Shown one piece after another: positions 29,453 to 36,409 of a stretch of 64,000 nucleotides of DNA; positions within the stretch are counted from its first letter, which is position 1; each line of letters starts with the position of its first letter. The notes beneath the pieces were generated by a model, which was not told the origin of the DNA, made no database searches, and worked only from the letters and a program-made list of their open reading frames with translations. The stretch lies in NCBI RefSeq assembly GCF_900239935.1, contig NZ_LT965928.1, positions 1,487,407-1,551,406 of the forward strand, read 5' to 3'. The stretch is from Pseudoalteromonas carrageenovora IAM 12662 (GTDB taxonomy: Bacteria; Pseudomonadota; Gammaproteobacteria; Enterobacterales; Alteromonadaceae). Made by a program: the position numbers and the translations under genes.

Positions 29453-30274
29453 TTATAATGCGGTTGCAGCTTTCATTTCGCTAACGAACGCTTTTAACTG
29501 AGCGGTCATTGCATCTAAATCATTAAGGTTAGCCTCAATAATTTTAACGACGGCTGAGCCTGAAATTGCACCGGCAGCACCTGCATTTAGCGCTGCTTTT
29601 ACATCATCGGGTGTTGAAATACCAAAGCCCAATAAAGCAGGGGCTGCATGGTATTCTTTTAATTTAGTAACAATGTTGCCCGCTGGCATTTGCGCTTTAG
29701 TATCAGTACCGGTAACACCTGCACGCGACAGTAAATACGTGTAACCACGCCCGTAAGACGCGCACTGGCGCAGTGTATCGTCATCGGCATTGGGTGTAGC
29801 AATAAATATTGGGTCTACACCATTTGCCATAGCGGCTTTCCTAAACATTTTAGACTCATGCAATGGCACATCAGCAACTAAAATGGAGTCCACGCCTGCC
29901 GCTTTTGCATCTTTATAAAATGCTTCAAGACCGCGCTTAAACACAAGGTTAGAATACAGTAATAAACCGATAGGAATATCTGCATTGTAATCGCGTATTT
30001 CTTTAATAATATCAAAGCAATCTTGGGTGTTAATATTTACATCAAGCGCGCGAATATTCGCTTTTTGAATAACAGGGCCATCAGCGATTGGATCTGAAAA
30101 CGGAATACCAAGCTCAAGTGCATCAGCGCCACCGTCAATTAGGCTTTTAATAATCGCAATACTTTGCTCTTTACCTGGGTCACCAATAGTAACAAAGGGT
30201 ACAAATGCACCTTGTTTTTGCTCATCCAGGGCGGCAAATGTTTTACCGTAACGATCTGTATTTAGCTGGCTCAT
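29453..30274 (-). CDS. trpA: tryptophan synthase alpha chain
   Basis: The protein has 273 residues. It contains [44 protein letters not shown], with the catalytic glutamate in ELGIPFSDP and aspartate in [20 protein letters not shown] and [10 protein letters not shown] follow. It cleaves indole-3-glycerol phosphate to indole and glyceraldehyde 3-phosphate within the TrpAB complex. It is the last gene of the trp operon and overlaps trpB by four bases (ATGA). Confidence 0.97.
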
Positions 30275-31455
30275 AGTTGACCTCCTTGTGATAAAACAGT
30301 GTGTACGTGCGTTAAATCTTTGTCGCCACGGCCACTTAAGTTAACCACTAAAATGCTTTCTTCTGTTTGCTCTTCTGCGTATTTAAGTGCATAAGCAAGG
30401 GCGTGGCTTGATTCGAGTGCCGGAATAATACCTTCGTTTTTAGCCAGCGCTTGGAACGCATCAAGTGCTTCTGTATCGGTAATACCAACATATTGAGCAC
30501 GACCGGTTTCGTGTAAAAAAGCGTGCTGTGGCCCAACTGCTGGGTAATCAAGACCGGCAGATACCGAGTATGACTCTTCTATTTGACCATCGTCGTTTTG
30601 CATAATGTAAGTATACGTACCGTGTAATATACCTTTGGTGCCTTTACAAATGGTAGCGCCGTGCTCGTGGGTATCTAACCCTTTACCAGCAGGCTCAACA
30701 CCGATAAGTTTTACACTTGGCTCGTCAATAAAGTCTGTAAACATACCAATAGCGTTAGATCCACCGCCAACACACGCAAGTACCGCGTCTGGTAAGCGAC
30801 CTTCAGCTTTTAATATTTGCTGTTTAGCTTCTTCACCAATAATTTTTTGATACTCTCGTACAATTGTTGGGAATGGGTGAGGGCCCGCAGCGGTACCAAG
30901 TAAGTAATGTGCCTCTTGATAATTTGCAGACCAGTCACGTAGTGCTTCGTTTACCGCATCTTTTAGTGTGCCAGAGCCTGCTGTTACCGGAATAACCTCT
31001 GCGCCCATTAATTTCATTCTAAATACGTTTGGCTGCTGGCGCTCAACATCTTTAGCGCCCATATAAATTCGGCATTTTAAGCCAAGTAATGCACACGCAA
31101 GAGCCGTTGCAACGCCGTGCTGGCCTGCGCCGGTTTCTGCAATAACTTCTTTTTTACCCATACGTTTAGTTAGCAACGCTTGACCAAGTACTTGGTTAGT
31201 TTTGTGCGCGCCACCGTGTAATAAATCTTCACGCTTTAGGTAAAGTTTAACTTTAGGGTTTTTAATTAAATTACGCGTTAAAGTAAGCGGCGTAGGGCGC
31301 CCTGCATACTCGTTTAGTAACTTGGTAAATTCTGCCTGAAATTCAGGATCTTTTTGTGCTTTGTTAAATTCGTTTTCTAACTGCTTAAGCGCAGGGACAA
31401 GTAGCTCGGGTACAAACATACCGCCAAACTCGCCAAAATAAGCTGGATTTTGCAT
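30271..31455 (-). CDS. trpB: tryptophan synthase beta chain
   Basis: The protein has 394 residues. It starts [20 protein letters not shown]. The PLP lysine lies in [18 protein letters not shown], and the glycine-rich phosphate loop is [12 protein letters not shown]. It joins indole and serine to form tryptophan. The frame is open for 26 more codons upstream, but that would run into trpCF; the family start and position 31455, seven bases after the trpCF stop, support the choice. Confidence 0.97.
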
Positions 31456-31462
31456 TTTAACC

Positions 31463-32827
31463 TCAATAATTTCTGATGCTTGTAAAAGCATTTTGTAATT
31501 TGTTAGGGCACTTTTTACCCGCAGATTCTTCAACGCCTGAGTTTAAGTCAAGGCCAAGGGCACCTTGAAAAAGCGCGTCTTTAATATTTTCTGGATTTAA
31601 ACCACCCGCTAGCATAAACGGTGTGGTTGCATCGCGAAGCACCGACCAATCAAATGCTTTACCTGTACCACCAGCTTGTGTATCGCTGTGGGTATCGTAA
31701 AGGTGGCGCTCTACGCCATTTACAGGTGTTGGTAGCGTATCTTTAATTGCTTGTGCTTTCCAAATTTCACACCCGTTAGGAAGTTGTGTACGTAAAGTGG
31801 CAATATAATCGTCACTTTCTTGTCCATGTAATTGAACTGCCGCTAATTTTAACACACTTGCGTATTGAGCTACTTGCTCAATTGGTGCATTTACAAATAC
31901 ACCTACAAAGTTTAACGGAGCGCTTTGGCTAAGCTCAATAGCACAGTCTAAATCTACATATCGTGGTGATTTAGGGTGAAAAATAAGCCCACCATACACA
32001 GCACCGCTGTTATAAGCTGCTTGCGCGTCTTGGCTACGCGTTAAACCGCATACTTTGTTATCACCAAGTATCACTTTTTTACAGGCTTGCTCTAAATCGC
32101 GCTCGGCCATTAGGGAGCTGCCAATTAAAAAACCATCGCATAGCGGTGCTAGGCGTTTAACATCTTGATGGGTATAAATACCAGACTCTGAAATAACCAC
32201 TTTATCTGCAGGAATGAGTTTACGCAGTTTTTCGGTGGTGGCTAAGTCAGTGCTTAAATCACGTAGGTCACGGTTATTAATACCTATAATTTGTGCATCG
32301 AGCGCAAGGGCGCGGTGCACTTCTTCTTCGTTACTTACTTCGGTTAATACCGACATATTAAGCGAGTCAGCTACTGCGTGTAGGGCTTTATATTGCTCAT
32401 CATCAAGTACTGAAAGCATTAACAAAATAGCATCACCGCCATAAATTCGCGCCATATACACTTGGTACTCATCAATAAAAAAGTCTTTACAAATAAGTGG
32501 TTGCTCTACTTGGCTACGTACAAATTCTAAATAATCAAAGCTACCTTGAAAGTACTTTGCGTCTGTAAGTACGCTCATACAGGTAGCGTATTTTTTATAA
32601 ACAGAGGTGATCTCTGTTAAATCAAACGGCTCGCGTATTAACCCTTTTGATGGAGATGCTTTTTTGCACTCTAAAATAAATTGTGTACCCGGTGCTGCCA
32701 GTGCTTCATAAAAGCTGCGACTGGTTGGCTCTGCTAGATGCTTAAAGCTTTCAAGCGGGCGGGCTGCCTTGCGTTCAATAAGCTCTAATTTTTTATCAGC
32801 AACAATTTTGTCTAATACATTAGCCAT
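31463..32827 (-). CDS. trpCF: bifunctional indole-3-glycerol phosphate synthase / phosphoribosylanthranilate isomerase
   Basis: The protein has 454 residues. The N-terminal TrpC barrel (to about 255) has [29 protein letters not shown] and [18 protein letters not shown]. The C-terminal TrpF barrel (about 257-454) has [33 protein letters not shown] and [11 protein letters not shown]. It performs two successive steps of tryptophan synthesis, as in enterobacterial TrpC. The start overlaps the trpD stop by eight bases, consistent with translational coupling. Confidence 0.96.
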
Positions 32828-33857
32828 GACTTACCTCAATAATTGCATTTAATGTGTCCATGGCCTTGCCTGAACTGAGTAATGTTTGTACGTGTCGTGC
32901 GCCATCTTTTAATGATTGCACTTTATCGCTTAGGTATAAAAGTGCAGCCACATTTACCACAATGGCAGCGTTGTGTGCGTCTGTGCCTTTACCTTGCAAT
33001 ATAGCAAGGCTTGCATTTGCGTTGTATTGTGGGCCTTCACCTGCTAGTTGTTCAAGTGAATAGTTTGCAAGGTCAAAGTCGCTTGGGTTTAATGTGTACT
33101 GTGTTATTTCGCCATTATTAAGCTCAACTACGTTGGTTGGGCCATGAAGGGCGATTTCGTCAGTACCTGAGCCATGCACGATCATTGCGCGCTTAGTGCC
33201 TAATGTTTTAAGCGTTTGTGCCATGGGCATACATAGCGACTCGTCGTACACACCTAGTAATTGCACATCAGGCGCCGCAGGGTTAGCAAGGGGGCCTAAA
33301 ATATTAAATATTGTACGTGTTTTAAGTGCAGTACGTACGCTCATCGCATGGCGTACGCCGCTGTGGTAATGCGGTGCAAACAAAAAGGTAAAGTGTGTTT
33401 GCTCAAGGCATTTTGCAGCTTGTTCTGGGCTCATATCAATATTAATGCCCAGTGCTTTGAGTAAATCGGCTGAGCCTGAATTACTTGATACACTGCGATT
33501 ACCATGCTTTACCATATTAATACCCGCGGCCGCTGCAACAATTGCAGCGGTAGTGCTTATATTAATTGTATTTGAGCCATCGCCACCGGTACCACAGCTA
33601 TCAGCAAGTTGTGAGCTATTTGTATTAAAAGCGACCGCGTTTTCACGCATTGATGCGGCAGCGCCGGCAATCTCATCGCTCACTTCGCCTTTTATTTTAA
33701 GGCTAATAAGTAAGGCTGTTAGCTCTATTTCGCTCATGTTGCCTTGCATTATTTCATCAAATAATGCTTTTGACTGCTCATAGCTTAGTGATTGATTTTT
33801 AATAAGCTGCTCAATAGCATATTGAACATTTATGGGCTCTTGTCGTTGTGTACTCAT
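32820..33857 (-). CDS. trpD: anthranilate phosphoribosyltransferase
   Basis: The protein has 345 residues. The family signature is ADSCGTGGDGSNTINISTTAAIVAAAAGINMVKHGNRSVSS, which holds the PRPP-binding glycines. RTIFNILGPLANPA and VVHGSGTDEI-like sequence (MIVHGSGTDEIAL) follow. It transfers the phosphoribosyl group to anthranilate. It is separate from trpG, unlike the fused E. coli TrpGD, and overlaps trpCF. Confidence 0.96.
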   Translation of the reverse strand: MSTQRQEPINVQYAIEQLIKNQSLSYEQSKALFDEIMQGNMSEIELTALLISLKIKGEVSDEIAGAAASMRENAVAFNTNSSQLADSCGTGGDGSNTINISTTAAIVAAAAGINMVKHGNRSVSSNSGSADLLKALGINIDMSPEQAAKCLEQTHFTFLFAPHYHSGVRHAMSVRTALKTRTIFNILGPLANPAAPDVQLLGVYDESLCMPMAQTLKTLGTKRAMIVHGSGTDEIALHGPTNVVELNNGEITQYTLNPSDFDLANYSLEQLAGEGPQYNANASLAILQGKGTDAHNAAIVVNVAALLYLSDKVQSLKDGARHVQTLLSSGKAMDTLNAIIEVSHG

Positions 33858-33868
33858 AATGTCCTCTA

Positions 33869-34471
33869 TTAATTTGCGCGTGTTAAATACGCGACACTTT
33901 GCTGAAGTAGCATCGCACCATTTGGCGTAAGTATTGATTCAGGATGAAACTGATAGCCCAATGCACTGTCTTCATGATGGTAAATAGCCATAGGTATGTC
34001 TTCAAATTGTGCTATTACTTCAATATTTTTAGGTACTTCAGTTGCCATTAGCGAATGATAACGCGCTACAGGCATTGTACTTCCCATGCCATCAAATACA
34101 GGGTGTGCGTTTAAATCAATGATTGATGACTTACCATGTACGGTTTCGCCAGCGTGACCGATTACTCCGCCATAACTTTGTGTTAAAGCTTGCTGGCCTA
34201 AACAAATACCAAGCATAGGAAATTGACCTTTAGCAAGTTCAATTAGCTCCATTAAGCAGCCGGCGTCGCTTGGTGTACCAGGCCCTGGTGATAGAACTAA
34301 TAATACTTGGCCAGGCTCTTGGCGCATTTTGTTAAAAATAACGTCAGCGTTTATGTTGTTTCTGTATACAACAAGCTCACACCCTAACATGGTTAGTTCA
34401 TCAACAAGGTTGTAGCTAAACGAATCAAAATTATCTAAAAAGTATATTTTAAGTGGATTTTCATTACTCAT
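33869..34471 (-). CDS. trpG: anthranilate synthase component II (glutamine amidotransferase)
   Basis: The protein has 200 residues. It is a class I glutamine amidotransferase with the oxyanion motif LSPGPGTPSDAG, nucleophile cysteine in MLGICLGQQAL and the His-Glu pair in GYQFHPESILT. It supplies ammonia to TrpE. The gene begins one base after the trpE stop. It may also serve folate synthesis as PabA does in some organisms, but the trp context favours TrpG. Confidence 0.95.
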   Translation of the reverse strand: MSNENPLKIYFLDNFDSFSYNLVDELTMLGCELVVYRNNINADVIFNKMRQEPGQVLLVLSPGPGTPSDAGCLMELIELAKGQFPMLGICLGQQALTQSYGGVIGHAGETVHGKSSIIDLNAHPVFDGMGSTMPVARYHSLMATEVPKNIEVIAQFEDIPMAIYHHEDSALGYQFHPESILTPNGAMLLQQSVAYLTRAN

Positions 34472-34472
34472 T

Positions 34473-36041
34473 TTATACCGCCTTATAAGTAGATTTTATG
34501 GCGGTAATGACCGCTTGAGCTTTTGCGCGGGTTTCGTTTGCTTCTGATTGCGGATCTGAGTCAAATACGACTCCTGCGCCAGCTTGCACATACGCCGTAT
34601 TGTTTTTTACAAACGCAGAGCGAATAACAATACAGCTATCCATTGCTCCATCGCCGGTTAAATAACCTACTGCACCACCGTAGCTTCCACGGCGCTTACC
34701 TTCTGTTTGGCGTACAAGTTCTGCGGCACGTACTTTTGGTGCACCAACAAGCGTGCCCATGTTCATACACGCTTGATAAGCATGTAGTGCGTCAAGTTCA
34801 GGTTTTAAAGTACCTACTACGCGTGACACTAAATGCATTACTTGTGAATAACGGTCTACTTTTAATAACTCTTTTGCAAAACGAGTACCTGCAACACTAA
34901 TACGTGCAACATCGTTACGCGCTAAATCGACAAGCATTAAATGTTCAGCACGCTCTTTTTGATCGTTTCTTAGCTCAAGCTCAATACGGCTATCTAAGTC
35001 TGGGTTTATTTGTCCGTTTGCAAACTTACCACGCGCTCGGGTACCTGCAATTGGATACACTTCAACTTGTTGATTACTTACATCGTACTTAAGCGCCGAC
35101 TCAGGAGAGGCGCCAAATAAAGCAAAGTCTTCATCGCGCATGTAAAACATGTATGGGCTTGGGTTTTGCTTTTTAAGTTGGCTGTAAGCATGTAACGAGT
35201 CAGGGCAGGGCAATGAAAAAGTACGTGAAGGCACCACCTGAAAAATGTCGCCATCGACAATATTCTTTTTAAGTTTAACTACTTGCTCGCAGTAAGTTTC
35301 ATCGCTTATATCAACGTTTACTTCACATTCGCCAGTTTGCATGTCTGCGCTAAATTCTGCCGCGTTGTCGCAAAGGGTATTTAACCGTTCAAGTTCTTTA
35401 CCTACTTCAAAGCAATTTGCATGAACATCTGGGCCATTAAATACATTACCAATAAGCTCAGTGGTTTGTTTTTGATGATCAATAACAACTAAGGTTTCGG
35501 CTAGGTAAAATACGTAATCTGGGCAGGTGTTTTCGCCATCAGGTACATCGCTTAATTGCTCAAAATTTGCCACCATATCGTAGGCAAATACACCGCCTAA
35601 AAATACCGAAAATGGATTTTCGGTGGTGCTTTGAATACTGTTAATACAGGTACGAAGAGCGCTGAAGGCATTATCGGCAACAAGCTTACTTGCTTCGTCT
35701 ATATCTCTGCTGATGTCTTGGTAGTTAAGTGTAAGCGTTGTGTCGTTTAATTGTGAATCGCAGCTCTTAACATTTGCTTGTAAGTAGCTTAATAATTGTT
35801 TGCCGTTATTAGATTGTGCGTTAACAGTTACCGTTTTTCCCTTACATACAATACGCAGGGCACTATCAACTAAAATTAAACTTTTAACACTGTCTTTAGA
35901 ATCAATTTCAGCTGACTCAAGCAGCAGCGAATTAGGCTTATCAAGTGCAGCATAAAGTGCAAGTGGGCTACTTATGTATTCACGAACTTGCGTAATGCTT
36001 GTTACTTCGCCTGGTGTGGTAGTTATATGACTAAAAATCAA
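34473..36041 (-). CDS. trpE: anthranilate synthase component I
   Basis: The protein has 522 residues. The Trp feedback site should be formed by the N-terminal LLLESAEIDS segment. The chorismate-binding core contains DGDIFQVVPSRTFSLP, PSPYMFYMRDEDFALFGASPESALKY, PIAGTRARG, ELRNDQKERAEHLMLVDLARND and GRRGSYGGAVGYL. It converts chorismate and ammonia to anthranilate, the committed step. The first usable start is a TTG at 36041 just after GGGAATGAGG. An out-of-frame ATG inside that stretch opens a five-codon frame across the start. The exact start is therefore the least certain part. Expression is controlled by the tandem attenuator upstream. Confidence 0.95.
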   Translation of the reverse strand: MIFSHITTTPGEVTSITQVREYISSPLALYAALDKPNSLLLESAEIDSKDSVKSLILVDSALRIVCKGKTVTVNAQSNNGKQLLSYLQANVKSCDSQLNDTTLTLNYQDISRDIDEASKLVADNAFSALRTCINSIQSTTENPFSVFLGGVFAYDMVANFEQLSDVPDGENTCPDYVFYLAETLVVIDHQKQTTELIGNVFNGPDVHANCFEVGKELERLNTLCDNAAEFSADMQTGECEVNVDISDETYCEQVVKLKKNIVDGDIFQVVPSRTFSLPCPDSLHAYSQLKKQNPSPYMFYMRDEDFALFGASPESALKYDVSNQQVEVYPIAGTRARGKFANGQINPDLDSRIELELRNDQKERAEHLMLVDLARNDVARISVAGTRFAKELLKVDRYSQVMHLVSRVVGTLKPELDALHAYQACMNMGTLVGAPKVRAAELVRQTEGKRRGSYGGAVGYLTGDGAMDSCIVIRSAFVKNNTAYVQAGAGVVFDSDPQSEANETRAKAQAVITAIKSTYKAV

Positions 36042-36054
36042 ACCTCATTCCCTC

Positions 36055-36094
36055 AAAAAATTAAACCCCGCAATGCGTTAGCAATGCGGGGTTA
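36055..36094 (-). terminator. trp attenuator 2 (terminator hairpin before trpE)
   Basis: On the minus strand the stem AACCCCGCA / TGCGGGGTT (with inner TGC/GCA pairs around TAAC) ends in TTTAATTTTTT, only about 15 bases before trpE. The upstream GCGGG and GGTAATGA, just after leader peptide 2, can pair with TCGTTATT and CCCGC of the left stem, forming the competing antiterminator. Confidence 0.88.
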
Positions 36095-36136
36095 GAATAA
36101 CGATATCTAAATTACAAACAGATCATTACCGTCCCG

Positions 36137-36187
36137 CTATATCAGGCGCCACCACCAACGATGTGTAAGAGTAAGACCGTTATTCAT
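36137..36187 (-). CDS. trpL: trp operon leader peptide 2
   Basis: The 16-codon frame reads MNNGLTLTHRWWWRLI, with three consecutive Trp codons at positions 11-13. It is preceded by TGAGGC, ten bases before the ATG. It lies 43 bases before the attenuator 2 stem. Ribosome stalling at the Trp codons when charged tRNA-Trp is scarce should favour the antiterminator and let transcription reach trpE. It is too short for normal ORF finding. Confidence 0.92.
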   Translation of the reverse strand: MNNGLTLTHRWWWRLI

Positions 36188-36236
36188 GTTTTTTTGCCTC
36201 AAAATTAAAAAATATAATTACGTAAAATTTAGTTAT

Positions 36237-36263
36237 AAAAAAACCCGCATTATGCGGGTTTTG
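36237..36263 (-). terminator. trp attenuator 1 (upstream terminator hairpin)
   Basis: On the minus strand AAAACCCGCATAATGCGGGTTTTTTT is a compact perfect terminator. The preceding GGGTGATGAATT can pair with AATTCAAAACCC, which includes the left stem arm, giving the antiterminator. CACTC at the end of leader peptide 1 can pair with GGGTG as the protector hairpin. All elements of a classical attenuator are therefore present. Confidence 0.9.
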
Positions 36264-36299
36264 AATTTTTGCTAGACACGACAATTCATCACCCAATAA

Positions 36300-36344
36300 T
36301 TATGAGTGCCACCACCAAATAGTGTTTTGAATTGAATTGATCAT
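36300..36344 (-). CDS. trp operon leader peptide 1
   Basis: The 14-codon frame reads MINSIQNTIWWWHS, again with three consecutive Trp codons (positions 10-12). Its ribosome site is weak (AAGAA, about ten bases before the ATG). It is the first translated element of the trp transcript and lies 36 bases upstream of attenuator 1. It is unrelated in sequence to leader peptide 2 outside the Trp run, so this does not look like a fresh tandem duplication. Confidence 0.9.
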   Translation of the reverse strand: MINSIQNTIWWWHS

Positions 36345-36379
36345 TTTTATTAATTCTTAATGTGTCTGAAAGTGGCTAC

Positions 36380-36409
36380 AGTAAAACGTATCTAGTGCTT
36401 TTGTGTCAA
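36380..36409 (-). promoter_or_regulatory. putative trp operon promoter
   Basis: A perfect -35 TTGACA (36404-36409) is followed after 18 bases by TTTACT (36380-36385) as -10, about 35 bases before leader peptide 1. The spacer contains GCACTAG, which matches one half of the TrpR operator consensus. No full TrpR palindrome is visible, so repression by TrpR is uncertain. Confidence 0.6.

Follow-up and report, generated by a model that had tools for sequence, protein, structure and literature searches.

Two putative ribosome-mediated transcription attenuators in series in the trp leader of Pseudoalteromonas

The trp attenuator, the textbook example of RNA control, is depicted with a single leader and a single terminator. 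The DNA upstream of trpE in Pseudoalteromonas carrageenovora IAM 12662 contains two of each, a natural doubling that recurs in almost every sampled genome of the genus, and this raises the question of how such a locus is to be read. It lies within a window of 64 kb (64,000 nt; GCF_900239935.1, NZ_LT965928.1, positions 1,487,407-1,551,406), by which we mean the whole stretch of DNA that was analysed. On its minus strand the order is promoter, leader 1, terminator 1, leader 2, terminator 2, trpEGD(CF)BA (Table 1), and the divergent genes upstream of the leader match RNase RNM and TIGR00057. Judging from the sequence, we consider it quite probable that one promoter is followed by two complete and independent ribosome-mediated transcription attenuators (A1 and A2) before trpE is reached. 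The initial annotation had described two short frames, each with three Trp codons and a terminator of its own, and all of these were found where it had placed them, to within 1 base. The two leaders are the sole ATG ORFs of 8-45 aa with WWW on either strand of the 64-kb window, and 5000 dinucleotide shuffles of the 450-nt leader region yielded no ATG ORF with WWW.

Table 1. Features of the trp locus, in window coordinates
Feature	Position	Strand	Remarks
trp promoter	36380..36409	-	TTGACA (36409-36404), spacer 18, TTTACT (36385-36380)
Leader peptide 1, MINSIQNTIWWWHS	36300..36344	-	three tandem Trp codons; no clear Shine-Dalgarno
A1 1:2 (protector) hairpin	36290..36308	-	CACTCA / TGGGTG around stop codon
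A1 2:3 antiterminator	36255..36295	-	TGGGT..TGAATT with AATTCA..ACCCG
A1 3:4 terminator	36237..36262	-	AAAACCCGCAT/ATGCGGGTTTT with T-run
Leader peptide 2, MNNGLTLTHRWWWRLI	36137..36187	-	three tandem Trp codons; GAGG ends 9 nt 5' of ATG
A2 1:2 hairpin	36133..36146	-	CCTG/CGGG across stop codon; weakest element
A2 2:3 antiterminator	36086..36137	-	GCGGG..GGTAATGAT with ATCGTTATT..CCCGC
A2 3:4 terminator	36055..36093	-	AACCCCGCATTGC/GCATTGCGGGGTT with T-rich tail
trpE	34473..36041	-	TTG start; NCBIfam NF010079 and TIGR00565, anthranilate synthase component I
trpG, trpD, trpCF (fused), trpB, trpA	29453..34471	-	NCBIfam above cut-off: TIGR00566, TIGR01245, NF006945, TIGR00263, TIGR00262

At each unit, a ribosome would translate the short ORF with its tandem Trp codons. 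Given the size of its footprint, the ribosome would lie over segment 1 when stalled on Trp and over segment 2 when at the stop codon. When charged tRNA-Trp is present, the ribosome would run to the stop codon and cover segment 2, and the 3:4 terminator would form; when it is absent, stalling on the Trp codons would cover segment 1, segments 2 and 3 would pair, and RNA polymerase would read on. Since RNA polymerase must pass both units, the residual read-through at high Trp would be the product of two leaks, provided that both hairpins terminate in the cell and that the two decisions are independent. The relative response to tRNA-Trp charging would then approximate the sum of the responses of the two units, giving a steeper response. 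As far as can be predicted from the letters of the DNA, termination would be multiplied in this way, possibly to the benefit of the cell.

By folding and by pair counts, both units contain a 3:4 terminator with a U-tract and a competing 2:3 antiterminator that shares segment 3 with it. The antiterminators had originally been drawn by hand, and RNA folding returned them as the minimum-energy folds of both units. In A1 of the window, the 1:2 hairpin folds with -6.5 kcal/mol (z -1.95), the antiterminator, which is the minimum with segment 4 absent, with -12.1 kcal/mol (z -2.2), and the terminator with -13.6 kcal/mol (z -4.2). The corresponding values for A2 are -6.1 kcal/mol with a z of only -0.3 for the 1:2 hairpin, -15.5 kcal/mol (z -2.1) for the antiterminator and -21.0 kcal/mol (z -5.9) for the terminator. 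Across the genus, the mean z is -3.8 for terminator 1 (67 unique sequences) and -5.0 for terminator 2 (73 unique sequences), and when segment 4 is taken out, z falls below -1 for the antiterminator in 67/67 A1 and 71/73 A2 sequences. A pattern scanner listed neither terminator on the minus strand; the one element it reported was hairpin 1, and that on the plus strand.

Covariation had been proposed as a check on both sets of stems, and compensatory changes are indeed present in A1 and in A2 among the genus sequences. Column-based covariation on the A1 and A2 alignments was dropped because A2 is out of register between clades; pairs were therefore counted from fixed anchors, which could be placed in 72 of the 73 A2 sequences. 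In these counts the shuffle controls ignore relatedness, changes are numbered as sequences and not as events, and invariant cores are uninformative either way. Read in this light, the A1 1:2 hairpin is closed by G-C in 58, A-T in 4 and T-A in 4 of 67 unique sequences, and the loop-side pair of terminator 1 is A-T in 15, G-C in 17, T-A in 15, T-G in 1 and unpaired in 16 of 64, with 0/1000 shuffles doing as well in either case. Three inner pairs of the A1 antiterminator show a weaker excess, equalled by 29, 2 and 5 of 1000 shuffles. In A2, the two outer pairs of the antiterminator are paired in 47/72 and 63/72 sequences, and the three outer pairs of terminator 2 in 64-71 of 72, with both sides varying and 0/1000 shuffles as good, while the inner antiterminator pairs mostly show no excess over shuffles. 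The four pairs of the A2 1:2 hairpin form in 65-72 of the 72 anchored unique sequences, with no double change.

The obvious point of reference is E. coli trpL (RF00513), which has the same leader ORF with tandem Trp codons, the same 1:2, 2:3 and 3:4 segments, a U-tract and trpE downstream. Each Pseudoalteromonas unit appears, from its sequence, built to act like the E. coli attenuator. The differences are that Pseudoalteromonas has two units, no convincing TrpR, and scores below the Rfam cut-off. In the window the Trp_leader model gives A1 33.8 bits, below the gathering cut-off of 41, and does not find A2. On 11 related loci its best score is 39.2 bits, again below 41, and among these sub-threshold matches A1 is found in all six Pseudoalteromonas loci given; five of these also contain A2, which is matched at a single one of them (L180, E 1e-3). 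Also below the cut-off are both units of a locus from another genus (L239, E 5.8e-5 and 0.04) and, at one further locus (L253), the second unit only. Of the 13 Rfam matches at E up to 5 between positions 30000 and 42000, none is to a T-box model, and the other Rfam matches (STnc370, IsrM, rimP and others) were set aside, as all fall below their own cut-offs.

Is the doubling a peculiarity of one strain? TrpE was found, and the upstream stretch read, in all 108 genomes of the genus, and 105 of them carry two Trp leaders, a count that includes one genome in which a stop interrupts the trpE match (G061). Loss of one leader in most close relatives, which the initial annotation had named as evidence against two working attenuators, is thus not what the genus displays. 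The paired analysis covers 104 genomes, G061 being left out with leader 1 outside the cut, and G060, G013 and G070 with a single leader. Leader 1 places segment 2 (its GGG) 13-15 nt after the last Trp codon in 104/104 genomes; for leader 2 this distance is 13 nt in 86, 10 nt in 11, 12 nt in 2 and 16 nt in 4, and it was not found in one. The compensatory changes and this spacing point to selection on both units. A different reading, in which one attenuator works and the other is a decaying duplicate, could draw on the greater looseness of leader 2, which has two Trp codons in 5/104 genomes (in G021 as WGW) and four in 10/104, has an altered and unanchorable segment 2 in G089, and is absent from 3/108; it could also draw on leader 1, which has a Shine-Dalgarno-like pattern 5' of it in just 7/104 genomes, compared with 79/104 for leader 2. 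However, nearly all of the 104 genomes keep frame, Trp codons, spacing, terminator, antiterminator and compensatory changes in both units, and we consider decay very unlikely. It is worth noting that leader 1 (36300-36360 region) is the promoter-proximal sensor and yet is without such a pattern in 97/104 genomes.

The initial annotation had gone further and taken the differences between the peptides and stems to mean that both units were kept by selection and were no recent duplication. The first part agrees with the data above; the second was put too strongly, given that A1 and A2 are 82-86% identical within G077, G078 and G079. The identity is 82% in G094, 77% in G054 and 72% at the median, in gapped alignments that leave out the Trp codons. 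The likeness in G077-G079 fits an old tandem duplication or a later homogenisation, and in all genomes A1 and A2 are made more alike by the constraint that their GCGGG/CCCGC cores share.

The three genomes with leader 1 only (G060, G013, G070) nevertheless have two terminators, the second about 30 nt 3' of the first. When their RNA is folded before the last arm is complete, the antiterminator 2:3 and a 4:5 hairpin form in 3/3; once both terminators are complete, the fold of lowest energy is the double terminator. From these folds we predict that the stalling of a single ribosome could relieve both terminators, one after the other, so that a single leader could drive both by a relay of 2:3/4:5 versus 3:4/5:6 pairing. 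Trp leaders of this kind, with a single leader, a double terminator and a segment 4 able to pair with segment 5, stand at loci L174, L175, L179 and L066 and are possible relay attenuators.

The reading as two attenuators in series places both on one transcript. TTGAC occurs in the 110 nt preceding leader 1 in 104/104 genomes and between the leaders in 0/104, and a relaxed sigma-70 rule finds a match upstream in 104/104 and between the leaders in 20/104. A strict scanner rule finds 4/104 upstream and 19/104 between; its low upstream count results from its demand for A as the second base of the -10 element, which the conserved TTTACT lacks. In the window, there is a weak match between the leaders (TTTATA-17-TATATT, 36239-36211). 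Such matches could be taken to mean that there are two promoters, with leader 1 on a long transcript and leader 2 on a second one starting between the units. We hold this to be most improbable: 84/104 genomes have no relaxed match between the leaders, the gap from the T-run to the start of leader 2 has a median of 24 nt and a minimum of 14, and the two promoter matches that the scanner reports in the window are no excess over a shuffle mean of 2.2. A transcription start between the leaders, which had been named as a possible refutation of two attenuators in series, is thus opposed by the conserved TTGAC found upstream only, with the qualification that a weak match does lie between them in the window and, under the relaxed rule, in those 20 genomes.

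A further alternative is that A2 acts chiefly on the translation of trpE and not by termination. In its favour, the trpE start in the 104 relatives is mostly TTG (87) or GTG (13; ATG 3, none found 1), and a second Trp-rich ORF that has no T-run terminator stands before trpE in other genera and families. However, terminator 2 is stronger than terminator 1 (means of -19.6 and -15.3 kcal/mol) and has a T-rich tail, its outer pairs vary on both sides, and the hairpin in the window does not include the trpE start, all of which makes a chiefly translational A2 highly unlikely in our view. Immediately 5' of the TTG or GTG start stands GAATGAGG (36043-36050 in the window), kept in 89/103 genomes, and in the window an ATG within it starts a five-codon ORF that overlaps the trpE start.

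The second Trp-rich ORF of other genera and families deserves separate consideration. Outside the genus, we read the sequence upstream of trpE at 110 loci: 90 from the family, where three Pseudoalteromonas genomes and G146, G155, G163, G168 and G185 were left out of a set of 98, and 20 from the order, where 40 of 132 matches had been taken. A first attenuator was recognised in 85 of the 110, and 70 of these 85 have at least 45 nt 3' of it. A second ATG ORF with WW or WxW occurs in 23 of the 70, where shuffles expect 0.3 and the reverse strand gives 1. One conserved form, WFIWWLLPIYAG, ends in WF[ILM]WWL[LQ]P[IL]YAG in 16 genomes from ten genera, picked for having it; its codons differ at third positions (L258, L264, L280, L277, L287, L275 and ten more), and no terminator was detected after this ORF. 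It looks selected for its peptide sequence, perhaps as an arrest peptide, and may stall the ribosome by that sequence itself. Another form, TGGCGATGG (W-R-W, with a CGA codon), occurs in the second ORF of 7/8 genomes of family f25, 7/8 of f11 and 4/4 of f12, and this ORF, situated 3' of attenuator 1 and 5' of trpE, has no terminator (L301, L304, L305, L297 and most of L328-L343). A second ORF with W-R-W after attenuator 1 was not seen in 20 genomes from twelve other families; some Rheinheimera carry WRWW. In some Rheinheimera (L243, L273, L084, L087, L090, L091) the second leader is also followed by a GC hairpin with little or no T-run whose end lies immediately 5' of the trpE Shine-Dalgarno, as would suit an output exerted in part on translation.

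We suggest, tentatively and at somewhat less than even chances, that a further stage of Trp sensing, distinct from attenuator 1 and located between it and trpE, recurs across the order in different forms. As we read them, these would be a full second attenuator in Pseudoalteromonas, Algicola, genus g22 and Rheinheimera mesophila, the relay in the three Pseudoalteromonas genomes, the W-CGA-W ORF in f11, f12 and f25, and the WFxWWLxPxYAG peptide. On a TrpE tree of 83 rows, with 17 of 44 named Pseudoalteromonas rows used, a double leader with a double terminator is found in Pseudoalteromonas, Algicola (L076) and Rheinheimera mesophila (L108), and on the Alteromonas-Bowmanella side each of the 43 rows is single. 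Labels were reassigned by hand in 14 rows, 11 of them in the tree. The double state needs four changes, at least three of them forced by well-supported branches, and this count depends on the setting of L087 and L090, which the script called as two leaders and two terminators and which were set by hand to one terminator because of a poor T-run. Gain and loss of the second unit cannot be told apart on this tree. One genome of genus g22 (L239) is double too.

Why might one lineage carry two attenuators? In a modelling study of E. coli, the trp repressor gives a range of about 70 and attenuation one of about 10, with a basal read-through of 10-15% (PMC1183508). According to the part of that article available to us, that the trp attenuator of E. 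coli is so leaky is linked to the presence of a repressor, and his lowers its leak by an extra hairpin. By simple arithmetic, two leaks of 10-15% in series amount to 1-2%, that is, a 44-100-fold range, as against the roughly 70-fold range of the E. coli repressor. With the PF01371 profile, which was positive on the E. coli control, TrpR scored above the cut-off in 0/98 family genomes, and the P. carrageenovora genome, the window's own, has no match at E <= 0.001. Among the 108 genus genomes, one reaches the cut-off, with a partial match (positions 36-71 of 88) whose 27.0 bits equal the cut-off itself. Weak matches at E <= 0.001 (3/98 family and 9/108 genus genomes) were set aside; those listed cover part of the model. 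Two attenuators would restore a wide range in a lineage without a convincing TrpR. Loss of TrpR as the sole cause of the second unit was rejected, as single-attenuator relatives are also without TrpR, which means that a second attenuator is not the only answer. The doubling in bacteria without a convincing TrpR nonetheless offers a direct test of how two termination decisions on the same signal combine, and also of whether RNA control can replace a repressor. A regulon survey reconstructs TrpR regulons in eight gammaproteobacterial lineages, and in the portion of its text at hand Pseudoalteromonas is not named among them (PMC5343134).

In the open-access literature, with older subscription attenuation surveys outside its scope, we found no paper on Trp leader attenuation in Pseudoalteromonas and no doubled ribosome attenuator responding to the same signal. 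The nearest ribosome-mediated case is Salmonella mgtCBR, where one leader RNA likewise has two short ORFs. These sense ATP and proline, two different signals, whereas the Pseudoalteromonas leaders both have Trp codons, and in the passages available its authors call mgtCBR a singular case of attenuators in tandem that respond to different signals (PMC3641672). The rimP leader of several Gammaproteobacteria has two serial terminators, with a potential antiterminator for the upstream one, but, unlike Pseudoalteromonas, no Trp leader peptides in the part of the description available to us (PMC2965389). Closest in logic are the pseudo-cooperative tandem riboswitches, such as those for TPP, which likewise place two same-signal switches between termination and read-through in series and, as far as the available text goes, give a steeper response curve when both bind the same ligand (PMC9481103). 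There, aptamers bind the metabolite, whereas in Pseudoalteromonas translating ribosomes would sense tRNA charging. If our reading is true, ribosome-sensing switches evolve tandem same-signal arrays, as riboswitches do. A habit of doubling common to other operons was not seen in the same genome with loose leader patterns: hisG, leuA and two acetolactate synthase (ilv) genes each have one leader-like ORF and one terminator.
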